Source of the DNA: an uncultured bacterium | GTDB lineage: Bacteria; Patescibacteriota; Minisyncoccia; Phycocordibacterales; PALSA-1337 | Assembly (NCBI GenBank): GCA_903825415.1 | Contig: CAIKAN010000088.1 | Coordinates: forward strand, 1-37,791 | Length of the DNA: 37,791 bases | Reading direction: 5' to 3' | In this document: one piece after another, positions 6,014 to 37,644 of the stretch | How positions within the stretch are numbered: the first letter of the stretch is position 1 | Layout of the letters: every line of letters begins with the position of its first letter | Position numbers and translations under genes: made by a program | Notes under the pieces: model-generated | Seen by the model: the letters and a program-made list of their open reading frames with translations, nothing else | Databases searched by the model: none | Told to the model about the DNA's origin: nothing

Positions 6014-6024
6014 AGGTCGGACCT
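6014..6024. repeat. Copy of the short palindrome core AGGTCCGACCT (here as AGGTCGGACCT)
   Basis: Exact reverse complement of the core found four times at 33.8-34.4 kb. Confidence 0.75.
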
Positions 6025-6128: not shown

Positions 6129-6905
6129 TCAGCGGAACAATTCCGCGTGAGGTTGGTTGTCGCTGTGCCAACGCCGAAGCGAAGCGTCATCTAGATCGAA
6201 GAACAACTTCTTCAGTGTGTTAGCCTCAACATGTCCATCGGCGAAGGCAACTTGCAATCTTCCACCATGCCTCTGTGAAGCTTGGGAAATAGTTTTTGCC
6301 CAATACCCTCCTGAAAGATTTCGTGAAAGATTATCCTGTCCTTCAAACATCATGTAAATATTCGCGGGACTTAAGTGACTTTGGCGCGATAATGAATCGC
6401 CCAGCATAATCATGTCGCTGGGATTCAGTACCTCCGATTCTAGGACAGGCGCAGACCACGCCGGACCCGTATATCTATCCGACAGTCCGTAGAGCGACCT
6501 TCCAAAGAAAGGGTCCCCAATTTGGTTGAAGGTTCCTTCGCTGTAGGCGTACGAACCTACAGAAGATGAGCCGTACTCAACGGTAAACCCCTTATATGTA
6601 GGACAGCGAAAAACACCGTTGCTCCAAACATTTGGGAAGTGTGGGAAGATTTGCTTATACCATCTCGAGCCGAGTGGCTCGGAGGGATTGGGCAGTTGCC
6701 GGTACAGAGGGTAGGCACCCTCGTTATCTTGCGTATAGCCAAGAAGCGCGATCCCAATCTGCCGGAGATTATTCTTGCAGTAGGTTGCTTGCGCTTTCGA
6801 TTTTGCGCTGGAAAGTGCAGGTAAGAGAAGGCTGGCCAGAATGGCGATGATGGCGATGACCACCAGAAGCTCAATGAGCGTGAATCCGTTACTTTGTTTT
6901 TTCAC
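6129..6905 (-). CDS. Prepilin-type N-terminal cleavage protein with H-X9-DG motif (pseudopilin-like)
   Basis: [30 protein letters not shown] prepilin signal; C-terminal [16 protein letters not shown]. Confidence 0.88.
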
Positions 6906-31790: not shown

Positions 31791-33203
31791 GTGAAGAGAA
31801 GGATATATATTTTCTGGTCTATTCTAATAGCCGTAGCTCTGATACGGTTAGTCTTTTCCTTGAATGTAAAGCCGCCGGATATCGGCTCATGTCTTAAAAG
31901 CAATGTGAATGGTACGGGCATCGTCTCTGAAGAACCGACGCGGACGAATACTGGTCAAATATTAGTCGTACAAGTGGAGAGGATGTCTGTTGGCGAATCA
32001 AAAGGCTTAACTGGTTGTCCAAATGATATTCAAATAAGAATGAAGACCAAGCTTTATCCGGTATATTCATACGGGACAATGGTCGATTTCTCTGGAAAGA
32101 TCAACCAACCATTCAATTTCAAGAGCGGCAGTGGCCGATCATTCGACTTCAAGGGTTATCTGGCAAAAGACGATATCTACTATGAGATCAAAAGCGCCGT
32201 CGTTTCAGTTCACGATATTGAATCAATGGCCAGTTTTTCAATTTCCAATATCAGCGATAGCGTCACTTCTTTTTTGTATAAGTTAAAGCTCGGTTTTGTG
32301 GCTAATTTAAATAGAACATTAGGTGAGCCTCATTCCGCTTTGGCGGCTGGCTTGGTAGTAGGGGAGAAGAGTGCTTTGGGCAAAGACTTATTGGATGATT
32401 TTCGGACGGTTGGCCTTATTCATATCGTTGTGTTGTCTGGATTTAACATAACGATCGTTGCAGACGCATTACGCCGCATGCTTTCATTTCTTCCAAGAGT
32501 ATGGGGGATAATCATAGGCGGAATAGGGATCGCCTTATTTGGCATCTTAGTTGGTGGAGGCGCTACAGTCATTCGCTCCTGTTTCATGGCTGGAGTGGCT
32601 CTTTCAGCCGACCTAATTCGTCGAGATTATAATGTCGTTCGAGCCTTAGCTTTCGCAGCTCTGCTCATGCTTATTCAAAGCCCCATGATCCTCTTGCACG
32701 ATCCTTCATTCCAGCTTTCATTTCTAGCGACTCTCGGTCTCATCTTATTGGCCAGTCCTATAGAGAAGCGCTTAACTCGTATTCCTGAAAAATTCGGCCT
32801 GCGCGGCATAGTCGCTTCCACATTCGCCACGCAGATCTTCGTCTCGCCATACATCCTTTACATGATGGGGAAGCTCTCCATCATCGGGGTCGTTGTTAAT
32901 ATCTTGGTCCTACCCCTGATTCCAGCAACAATGCTCGCCGTATTCGTAACTGGCGCATTAGGATTCGTTTCATTCAGCTTATCGCAGATCGCCGGCTGGG
33001 CGACACATCTATTATTAGCCTACGAACTATTCATGGTCGAACATTTCGCCAGAATCCCATTCGCGGCCGTGAATGTTCCACAGTTCTCGTTCTGGTTCGT
33101 GGTGGCGTTCTACGTAATATTTTTCGTAGTGTTCTATGGATGGCGATCGTTTAGGAAATCGCCCTTTCATAATTCTCCTCCACCACCTCCCAGTTCAAAT
33201 TAG
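31791..33203 (+). CDS. comEC: ComEC/Rec2-type competence channel protein (membrane domain)
   Basis: GEKSALGKDLLDDFRTVGLIHIVVLSGFNITIVADALRR, RDYNVVRALAFAALLML, DPSFQLSFLATLGLIL. GTG start. Confidence 0.9.
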   Translation: MKRRIYIFWSILIAVALIRLVFSLNVKPPDIGSCLKSNVNGTGIVSEEPTRTNTGQILVVQVERMSVGESKGLTGCPNDIQIRMKTKLYPVYSYGTMVDFSGKINQPFNFKSGSGRSFDFKGYLAKDDIYYEIKSAVVSVHDIESMASFSISNISDSVTSFLYKLKLGFVANLNRTLGEPHSALAAGLVVGEKSALGKDLLDDFRTVGLIHIVVLSGFNITIVADALRRMLSFLPRVWGIIIGGIGIALFGILVGGGATVIRSCFMAGVALSADLIRRDYNVVRALAFAALLMLIQSPMILLHDPSFQLSFLATLGLILLASPIEKRLTRIPEKFGLRGIVASTFATQIFVSPYILYMMGKLSIIGVVVNILVLPLIPATMLAVFVTGALGFVSFSLSQIAGWATHLLLAYELFMVEHFARIPFAAVNVPQFSFWFVVAFYVIFFVVFYGWRSFRKSPFHNSPPPPPSSN

Positions 33204-33817: not shown

Positions 33818-33842
33818 TTGGCGAAGGTCCGACCTTCGCCAA
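33818..33842. repeat. AGGTCCGACCT palindrome copy (12-bp arms)
   Basis: TTGGCGAAGGTC-C-GACCTTCGCCAA. Confidence 0.9.
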
Positions 33843-33860
33843 GGTTAGCCGCCGTTTTGA

Positions 33861-33877
33861 CGAAGGTCCGACCTTCG
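33861..33877. repeat. AGGTCCGACCT palindrome copy
   Basis: CGAAGGTC-C-GACCTTCG. Confidence 0.9.
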
Positions 33878-33884
33878 GAATGAA

Positions 33885-33922
33885 TTTATCCCTTTTTTAT
33901 CAGAAATTCAGCGTTTTTTCAT
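33885..33922 (+). promoter_or_regulatory. Duplicated ~38-nt leader/promoter element, copy 2 (upstream of the MBL-like gene)
   Basis: TTTATCCCTTTTTTATCAGAAATTCAGCGTTTTTTCAT. Confidence 0.85.
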
Positions 33923-33940
33923 AACGGTTTGATAGAGTCT

Positions 33941-33965
33941 TTTCTGGAGGTCCGACCTCCAGAAA
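33941..33965. repeat. AGGTCCGACCT palindrome copy (12-bp arms) abutting the start codon
   Basis: TTTCTGGAGGTC-C-GACCTCCAGAAA, 3 nt before ATG 33969. Confidence 0.92.
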
Positions 33966-33968
33966 TAA

Positions 33969-34973
33969 ATGCATAAGTTATTCAAGTCAAAAACGTTTAA
34001 GGTGACCACGGCTGTTTTAATTGTGCTTCTTTGTGCCGTTGCATATATTTGGATCCAAGAAAGTCGGCCGAAAATCTTAGAGATGTGGGTGATTCAGTTG
34101 AAAGGCAGCCAAGCCATCTTCATTCGCACACCGAATGATAAACGGGTATTGATCGATGGTGGGCCTAATTCAGATATAGTCAGGGTCATAACGAAGATCC
34201 TGCCATTTTATTCAAGGAGAATAGATACCATCATATCGACAGATACAGATGATAAGAATGTATCCGGACTCGTGGATATCTTGGAAAGATATAAGGTTGA
34301 AAATCTGATTGTGCCAGCGATATCCCTTCAATCGCTAAACTTGGCCAGCACCACAGGCGGCGCCTATGATTCATTGCTTGATACGGCACAGAGAAAGGCG
34401 ATTAAGATAGATTACCAAGGGTCAACCTTGCCGGGAGGTCCGACCTCCAGGAAAGATTCAGCCTCATCAACAGCTTTTGGAAACGACGGAATCGCCGACT
34501 CGATTATTATCGATGATGGCAGTGTCGACAATAAGAGGCCTGTATCGATTAGTTTCCTCTTCCCGGTCCCTCAGGGATCTTTTCAGTATTCGAAGGCTAG
34601 CTCGCCGCAGCTCATTATGAGAATAGCTTATGGAAATAAACCTTTTCTTTTGATAGGAAATGCTTCGACTAAGATCCAAAAAGACATCGCTTCAAGAAAA
34701 ATAGGGAATACATCAGTTCTCATCGTCTCGTTCAATCCTACATCTGATAGTATTTCCAAGGAATTGGCCGATGATACGCACTCTCATTATTTGATCTATT
34801 CAAAGAGCCTAACGGCAGTTTCAAGACCGTCTAAGTCGGAGAGTGTATCATCAAAAGACAAAAAAATAGATCCTTTCTACTGGATCATGGATAGCGACCG
34901 ATATAATGTGAGGGAAAAGGGAGTGGTGAAGATCGTCTCTGATGGAGAAAAGCTACAGTTTTTCGGTCAGTAG
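33969..34973 (+). CDS. ComEC C-terminal metallo-beta-lactamase-like domain protein, metal site apparently degenerate
   Basis: N-terminal TM, then LEMWVIQLKGSQAIFIRTPNDKRVLIDGGPNSDIVRVITKILPFYSRRIDTIISTDTDDKNVSGLVDIL. Confidence 0.75.
   Translation: MHKLFKSKTFKVTTAVLIVLLCAVAYIWIQESRPKILEMWVIQLKGSQAIFIRTPNDKRVLIDGGPNSDIVRVITKILPFYSRRIDTIISTDTDDKNVSGLVDILERYKVENLIVPAISLQSLNLASTTGGAYDSLLDTAQRKAIKIDYQGSTLPGGPTSRKDSASSTAFGNDGIADSIIIDDGSVDNKRPVSISFLFPVPQGSFQYSKASSPQLIMRIAYGNKPFLLIGNASTKIQKDIASRKIGNTSVLIVSFNPTSDSISKELADDTHSHYLIYSKSLTAVSRPSKSESVSSKDKKIDPFYWIMDSDRYNVREKGVVKIVSDGEKLQFFGQ
34434..34448. repeat. AGGTCCGACCT palindrome copy inside the coding sequence
   Basis: GGAGGTC-C-GACCTCC within the MBL-like gene, reading in frame as part of LPGGPTSRK. 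Confidence 0.9.
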
Positions 34974-35095
34974 GACACAAACGCTTGGATACAGTTCGAG
35001 GCGCGAGTGAGGCTTGCGACCAAACTGTATTGTAAATACAGTGCGGGAGCAAACGAACGAAGCAACGAAGAAATGCGCCAAGCGTTTGTGTCCTA
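34971..35095. repeat. Giant imperfect hairpin 3 between convergent genes
   Basis: TAGGACACAAACGCTTGG / CCAAGCGTTTGTGTCCTA perfect 18-bp outer arms with partial internal complementarity. Confidence 0.9.
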
Positions 35096-36233: not shown

Positions 36234-37622
36234 TTAATTGCAGGCCAGACGTTCTTCCTGTGCGTACTGCAGAGCGGCATAGATGCCGGGATTGCGCATA
36301 CCCAAGATCTGAAGCGCTGCCAAGACCGCATTGGCCGGAGACAGCACAGTCATTGCGGGCACGCCGCTCGGAAGGCGTAGCGAGGACCAGATATCGTCTG
36401 GGAACCCCTTGAAGTCTGCTGGCACGTTGATGACAGGGACCGAAGTGTTGGCTGACAAGGTCGGTCCCGCGCCATTGCTCATCCCGATAAAGTCGATGAT
36501 GACCGCGTCCGGATGTTTCTGAACGGTTTCGCTGAGGATCTGTAGGCCTCGAACGGATTGTTTATGCATGGAACAAGTCACTTCGATCGCGGTGACTAGC
36601 GATCCGCCAACGAGCTCGTCCACACTCTTCGTCAGAGGGGATATGTCGTCCTTTTCCGACCCGCGCCATAAGATCAGGCTCTGAGAAGGGATCGAGAACT
36701 GTCCCGTCAAATCGGCAACAAGACGGAAGTTGGCAGTCACGGTGTTCATAGCCCCATCATTGCGGAAGAGCTGTTTGCAGATATAATTGCCTGCCGCATC
36801 GCGAAGCCTCCAGGAATCATTGTCGAGCACGTCGGCCAACCTCAGTCGACCATCGGGGTCGATGCCGAACTCGACTTTGAAGTCGCCCATTGTCTTCCTG
36901 AGGAGCTGCCAAGCTTTTTCGAGGATCAAGAAAGTCCTGCGGGCGATCTTTTCCATCTCCGGCATCATAGCTTCAATGCCAGAATCGCCGAAGAACTCCT
37001 CTTTTGACACAGTCATGAACGGCTTTTGGCCGATCAGGAAATTGACGGTGCCGTCTGAGTCACGGAGTTTCCGCTGTGCCTTGGTGAAGTGGGGTAGGTA
37101 GAATTCCACATTAGTTTCTGTGACGACGATGAGGGGGTCATCCATGGGAATGTCCTTACCTCTCCATTTCCGATCCTTGGTCTTGGCGAAGAATTCGACA
37201 CGGAGCCTCGGAAATCGTTCCCGCTTCACGATGTGAGGAAAACGTTCCAGGAATGAGCCGTCTGCTTCGCGGCGCACGACCACCTCCAAGTCGACCATCT
37301 TACACTTCGGTGCGATGAATCCGTGCATTGTCCAGTCTGGAACATCAGCAGGCTGATTCACGATCTGGCTCTCGAAAGCGACCGGTATGCCGCAGGCTCT
37401 CAGTAAGTTGAAGCTGTTGCAGGTTGTTCTATTGGCCAGCTCAGCCTTGCCTGTGATGATCTCCTGCTTATCACCATCACCTGCGGTGAGGTCATCCTTG
37501 GAGATGATATACACCTGGTTGGGGGCATCGACCACGTTGAAGATCTTTTTTGTCTTTCCCTCACAGGCTGGTGGTGCGGCGACTGATCTCCCTAGTATTG
37601 ATGTTGGGGTTGTTTCGTTCAT
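36234..37622 (-). CDS. purCE: Fused SAICAR synthetase (PurC) - AIR carboxylase (PurE) bifunctional protein, PAICS-like
   Basis: N-part: [38 protein letters not shown]; C-part: [54 protein letters not shown]. ATG at 37622 (track GTG at 37628). Confidence 0.88.
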   Translation of the reverse strand: [462 protein letters not shown]

Positions 37623-37644
37623 AGACACTGCCTTTCAATGTGCG

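Follow-up and report, generated by a model that had tools for sequence, protein, structure and literature searches.

Short hairpin palindromes in a Patescibacteria genome, very probably REPs spread by a resident RAYT, beside a promoter-like array of competence genes

The locus raises the question of what spreads and keeps several copies of one short palindrome around an MBL-like gene located downstream of comEC, including one copy in frame within the gene itself. The original prediction, made from the letters of the window (the whole analysed stretch of 37,791 nucleotides), described four copies with a common core and proposed a hairpin under selection, a small mobile unit of the REP type or a DNA-uptake sequence. 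The coordinates and the sequences of these four copies are exact, and an additional fifth copy is present at 6014–6024. The features considered here are listed below.

6014–6024, minus strand: palindrome copy 5, with a degenerate right arm and without an overlapping gene of at least 120 aa
31729–31782, plus strand: second promoter-like array, 62 nt ahead of the comEC start (31791–33203)
33818–33842, no strand assigned: palindrome copy 1, TTGGCGAAGGTCCGACCTTCGCCAA, of the arm family GGCGA
33861–33877, no strand assigned: palindrome copy 2, CGAAGGTCCGACCTTCG, stopping 7 nt short of the promoter-like array
33885–33938, plus strand: promoter-like array of five hexamers in exact 11-bp phase (TTTATC, TTTATC, TTCAGC, TTCATA, TTGATA)
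33941–33965, no strand assigned: palindrome copy 3, TTTCTGGAGGTCCGACCTCCAGAAA, placed after the −10-like element and ahead of the start codon of MBL
33969–34973, plus strand: MBL-like gene, ComEC C-terminal-like, with a weak TIGR00361 match (E 7e-4)
34413–34451, plus strand: in-frame insert of 39 bp, YQGSTLPGGPTSR, holding palindrome copy 4 and a decayed second palindrome, CAAGGGTCAACCTTG
34434–34448: palindrome copy 4, GGAGGTCCGACCTCC, within the 39-bp MBL insert

The window contains 5 occurrences of the motif AGGTCSGACCT with at most one mismatch; shuffles give an expectation of 0.25, and 0 of 100 shuffles reached 5. Copy 1 forms an 11-bp stem, and its RNA fold has an energy of −17.4 kcal/mol (z −4.8). 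Copy 3 indeed ends 3 nt ahead of the MBL start codon (ATG at 33969), as had been noticed. The accompanying idea that its hairpin hides a GGAGG is weak, because this GGAGG (33946–33950) lies 18 nt from the ATG, beyond the normal Shine-Dalgarno spacing, and such sequestration was rejected.

The genome-wide count confirms a dispersed family: the core AGGTCCGACCT is present at 65 sites in the host genome (G000, a draft of 1.05 Mb in 99 contigs), and the reversed control pattern at 0. The core variant AGGTCTGACCT adds 15 more sites. The arms form discrete families (TTGCAG..CTGCAA, TTCTGG..CCAGAA, TTCGGG..CCCGAA, GGCGA..TCGCC and TTCCGA..TCGGAA), and hybrids between them occur as well. At offsets 1–4 outside the 11-mer, the arms pair in 59, 54, 42 and 44 of 62 copies, against 37, 30, 23 and 28 expected, and this covariation, which fades at offsets 5–6, was matched by 0 of 1000 permutations. 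The compensatory arm changes around a fixed core, proposed earlier from the four copies, are thus real at four outer positions, and it is the hairpin, not a fixed sequence, that is retained outside the core. No conserved foot tetranucleotide (5′ GTAG/GTGG or CGTC) was found across the 62 copies, which places the family outside the GTAG and CGTC superfamilies. The Rfam search of the palindromes gave chance matches only and no family. A 19-mer scan of GTDB contigs matched one relative, Ca. Taylorbacteria; a Gracilibacter match from the same scan was at chance level and was rejected.

Very probably, the palindromes are REPs: hairpins that are short, mobile and non-autonomous and depend for their spread on a RAYT (TnpA_REP, Y1/HUH) encoded in the same genome. 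The host genome holds a single Y1_Tnp gene (C94:6585–7127), which matches PF01797 with 25.2 bits (cut-off 23) and has REPs at −150, −113 and −28 relative to its ATG. Its score of 37.6 bits against NCBIfam NF047646 (REP_Tyr_transpos) lies below the cut-off of 80, which makes it a distant RAYT, and no relative was found in a PDB sequence search. The catalytic HxH (H72, H74), Y132 and N136 are invariant across 16 aligned RAYTs. Most of the RAYTs inspected in relatives have palindromes 5′ of the ATG, the stop codon is often accompanied by an inverted dimer, and in G054 and G003 the RAYT gene carries its own REP in frame.

The cores associated with RAYTs vary between species (AGGTCCGACCT, AGGTTCCACCT, AGGTCTGACCT, AGGTTCAACCT, AGGTTTAACCT and others), and core and RAYT turn over jointly. 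Four cores were counted in 60 genomes, with the copies at the RAYT locus removed. The counts were made by hand from coordinate lists, and 14 of them were rechecked by script, among them G033, which was later dropped from the core-RAYT scoring, as the nearest palindromes there bear a fifth core. In 15 of 15 scorable genomes, the RAYT-adjacent core outnumbers the other tested cores in the rest of the genome; G003 encodes two RAYTs, and their cores rank first and second in its counts. A tested core reaches 5 or more copies in 17 of the 25 RAYT-positive and 7 of the 35 RAYT-negative genomes (p 0.0004). The genomes G008, G021, G029 and G047 have REP cores with RAYT undetected, and their copies are read as orphan populations after RAYT loss, in which the subsequent REP decay would be measurable. 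The RAYT tree is mostly unresolved and the cores cluster on it weakly (8 changes against a shuffled mean of 9.9, with 10 of 200 shuffles as low); core switching or transfer between RAYTs is possible.

In the proposed mechanism, the REP hairpin would fold on single-stranded DNA, and the RAYT would recognise it, in hairpin form, by its fixed centre AGGTCCGACCT, the outer arms needing only to pair. The RAYT would then cut the hairpin and join it into new single-stranded targets, acting in trans. Recognition of a hairpin on single-stranded DNA has been reported for TnpA_REP of E. coli (PMC8266576, PMC6006769), and we infer actual cutting and movement of the REPs by the RAYT of the host genome. Copies would survive where they are harmless, which is between genes, beside gene ends or promoters and in frame within surface loops and linkers, where stop-free palindromes would be tolerated.

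The positions of the copies were surveyed in 29 stretches and the window, with ORFs called by a simple script and copies within an ORF of at least 120 aa considered intragenic. Across these 360 kb, mostly picked for holding copies and so biased to copy-bearing contigs, 36 of 65 copies are located inside such ORFs and 29 outside. Because coding sequence makes up 80%, intergenic copies are still in excess despite the intragenic number (29 versus about 13 expected, p 5e-6). Among the intragenic copies, every reading frame is represented, and 25 are in sense orientation against 11 in antisense; the CCG-core families, as read off their sequence, are stop-free in every frame. An acetyl-CoA-synthetase (ADP)-like (ACS-like) gene holds ten in-frame copies; other host genes encode ProRS, pyruvate:ferredoxin oxidoreductase, DnaG (two copies), a NifS-like protein (three), NifU, MurA and RNase HII. 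The copy in LeuRS is located at the N-terminus and so possibly belongs to a 5′ leader. In the ACS-like protein, the peptides encoded by REPs mostly coincide with gaps in the alignment to PDB 8wzu; the alignments of NifU and MurA are less clear. Such copies have landed harmlessly in frame within essential genes of an ultra-small Patescibacterium.

The MBL gene presents an insertion of the same kind. The copy seen in frame within it is confirmed, and the expectation that its orthologues might lack the insertion holds as well, since the insert at 34413–34451 is missing from 11 of 11 aligned orthologues. Separately, a long inverted repeat, GGACACAAACGCTTGG...CCAAGCGTTTGTGTCC, is visible by eye in the window at 34974–35095, immediately 3′ of the MBL stop codon.

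The promoter-like array at 33885–33938, with a −10-like TANNNT at 33933–33938, is separate from the REPs but flanked by them. By BLAST, its 50-bp box (33885–33934) recurs at more than a dozen places, and a pattern search found 19 arrays in the host genome (L152–L170) and 0 controls, with the TANNNT at the array end invariant (19/19). The start codon often follows about 60 nt from the box start, which would make the transcripts near-leaderless. The genes located after the arrays include comEC, MBL, ComM/YifB, PilB with PilC, a type IV prepilin, rpsF-ssb-rpsR, PemK/MazF-like toxins and the RAYT. The array score reaches at least 20 for 7 of 274 own genes and at most 6.2 for the remainder; these within-genome values are circular because the score was trained on the own boxes, and the scores in relatives are not. 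Among same-genus relatives, the array precedes MBL in 8 of 11 (p 0.01 or lower), most comEC genes, at 60–63 nt, and 11 of the 12 RAYTs scored, compared with 0 of 8 RAYTs of other families. Further instances precede rpsF in G003, as well as comEC and MBL in G021. The RAYT therefore shares its promoter type with the DNA-uptake genes in the host genus, and the array is a candidate competence-regulon promoter. Over 148 bp, the window cluster aligns at 75% identity with the region upstream of the RAYT, which had suggested a larger mobile element; this reading was rejected, since the array recurs at many genes without REPs and thus appears as a promoter-like box with REPs alongside.

Several arrays precede less familiar sequences. 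Five of them (L152, L153, L160, L167 and L169) have no ORF directly downstream, and the sequence there is richer in G+C. The pattern TGACGACTGTTTA..CCTG.GGGGGTA is common to L153 and L169 and may represent a small RNA under the same regulon. Arrays L154, L156 and L168 precede genes for small proteins (about 130 aa) that belong to no Pfam family, and the proteins of L156 and L168 are alike by eye (VKRIRNLKE.., VKRYPHDK..).

With the same promoter-like array as comEC and the other uptake genes, the RAYT is probably expressed together with competence, when single-stranded DNA would be abundant. Natural competence through ComEC is documented in Saccharibacteria, another Patescibacteria lineage (PMC10633639). 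A wider and tentative scenario, which we hold to be possible but rather less than even in probability, is that the RAYT of this Taylorbacteria genus belongs to a competence regulon with an undescribed 11-bp-phased promoter and near-leaderless mRNAs, and that REPs spread during transformation and prefer active competence promoters.

Other readings of the same association have to be weighed. The clustering at arrays may come from regulation of competence genes by REP-bound RAYT instead of insertion preference or tolerance. REP-like palindromes stand at most 12 nt upstream of 6 of the 19 own arrays and at the equivalent position of 5 of 272 other genes (Fisher p 1e-5), and comEC, MBL and one RAYT of G003 show the same REP-beside-array arrangement with a different core, which speaks for such control. 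However, 13 of the 19 arrays and many arrays in relatives are without a REP, which is hence not required, and open promoters or intergenic tolerance account for the clustering equally well, so that this regulation is unlikely. Selection of each copy at its own site as a functional RNA or regulatory element (a terminator, an mRNA-stabilising 5′ hairpin or an RNA-protein operator) would fit the sense bias inside ORFs, the concentration of copies at gene ends and near array promoters, and one terminator-like copy on the minus strand. Such an origin is nevertheless distinctly unlikely, as copies occur in enzymes on both strands and in every frame, belong to no Rfam family and are patchy across the genus, with a core that tracks the RAYT.

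A DNA-uptake or self-recognition sequence, marking own DNA for the competence machinery, was the speculative option drawn from the competence neighbourhood. This neighbourhood does matter, in that the copies surround an array common to competence genes and the RAYT, and copies flank competence genes and a competence-type promoter; the uptake role, however, finds no support. The density of the palindrome is about 65 per Mb, too low beside known uptake sequences, which have densities near 1 per kb. Most same-genus genomes hold 0–1 copies, several cores exist within one genus, each tracking a RAYT, and the arms of the hairpin are under a constraint that would be unnecessary for an uptake motif. 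A role in uptake is accordingly very improbable. The option of a REP-like, small mobile palindrome is the one borne out by the cognate RAYT, the dispersed and patchy copies, the arm covariation and the MBL orthologues without the insert.

Spread of the palindromes as REPs by a RAYT can be compared with known systems. The structural hallmarks of REP/RAYT are found here, namely an HxH/Tyr gene, a RAYT whose neighbouring REPs match those dispersed in the genome, and short high-copy hairpin palindromes; the transposase gene is single-copy in its own genome, in contrast to the multi-copy mobile gene with LE/RE ends that defines IS200/IS605. Like REP/RAYT, REPINs and BIMEs (PMC2817692, PMC3116915, PMC6006769), the system combines one Y1/HUH gene without IS ends, matched flanking palindromes that are also dispersed, dimers and a species-specific core. 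It differs from classical REP/RAYT in the missing GTAG foot, in odd-centred and nearly symmetric palindromes with variable arms, in the location of about half of the copies within genes, in the Patescibacterium host and in the RAYT promoter type common to competence genes. In-frame intragenic REPs are already known, and the GTAG/CGTC ones, like the Rickettsia palindromic elements, lie in functional, often housekeeping genes (PMC3733652); here the tag is absent, a cognate RAYT is found and a gene holds up to 10 copies. REPs in frame within RAYT genes, as in G054 and G003, are known from TnpA_Y1 subclass 2.4, and subclass 2.6 resembles the RAYTs described here in being flanked by atypical structures (PMC6006769), but both differ by the GT[AG]G tetranucleotide, which is missing here. 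The uptake sequences of Neisseria and Haemophilus are likewise short repeats near competence genes, in coding and non-coding DNA, whereas the present family is of low density, patchy, hairpin-constrained and tied to a transposase.

In the literature searched, no description was found of RAYT or REP elements in the host group or of a RAYT tied to competence control. The system indicates that REP/RAYT elements are active in streamlined Patescibacteria genomes, where they would rewrite protein-coding genes in frame, and the matched RAYT-core pairs from many species make recognition specificity testable. The common promoter array is a concrete, testable candidate for the competence regulon of uncultured Patescibacteria, and would connect natural transformation with a single-strand transposase that has been domesticated.

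Two other genes of the window deserve a remark. A prepilin-like gene at 6129–6905 (minus strand) presumably resembles Verrucomicrobia/Planctomycetes proteins, which we take to be odd for the lineage and possibly due to transfer or misassembly. At 36234–37628 (minus strand), one ORF encodes SAICAR synthetase and AIR carboxylase domains together, as a PurC-PurE fusion.
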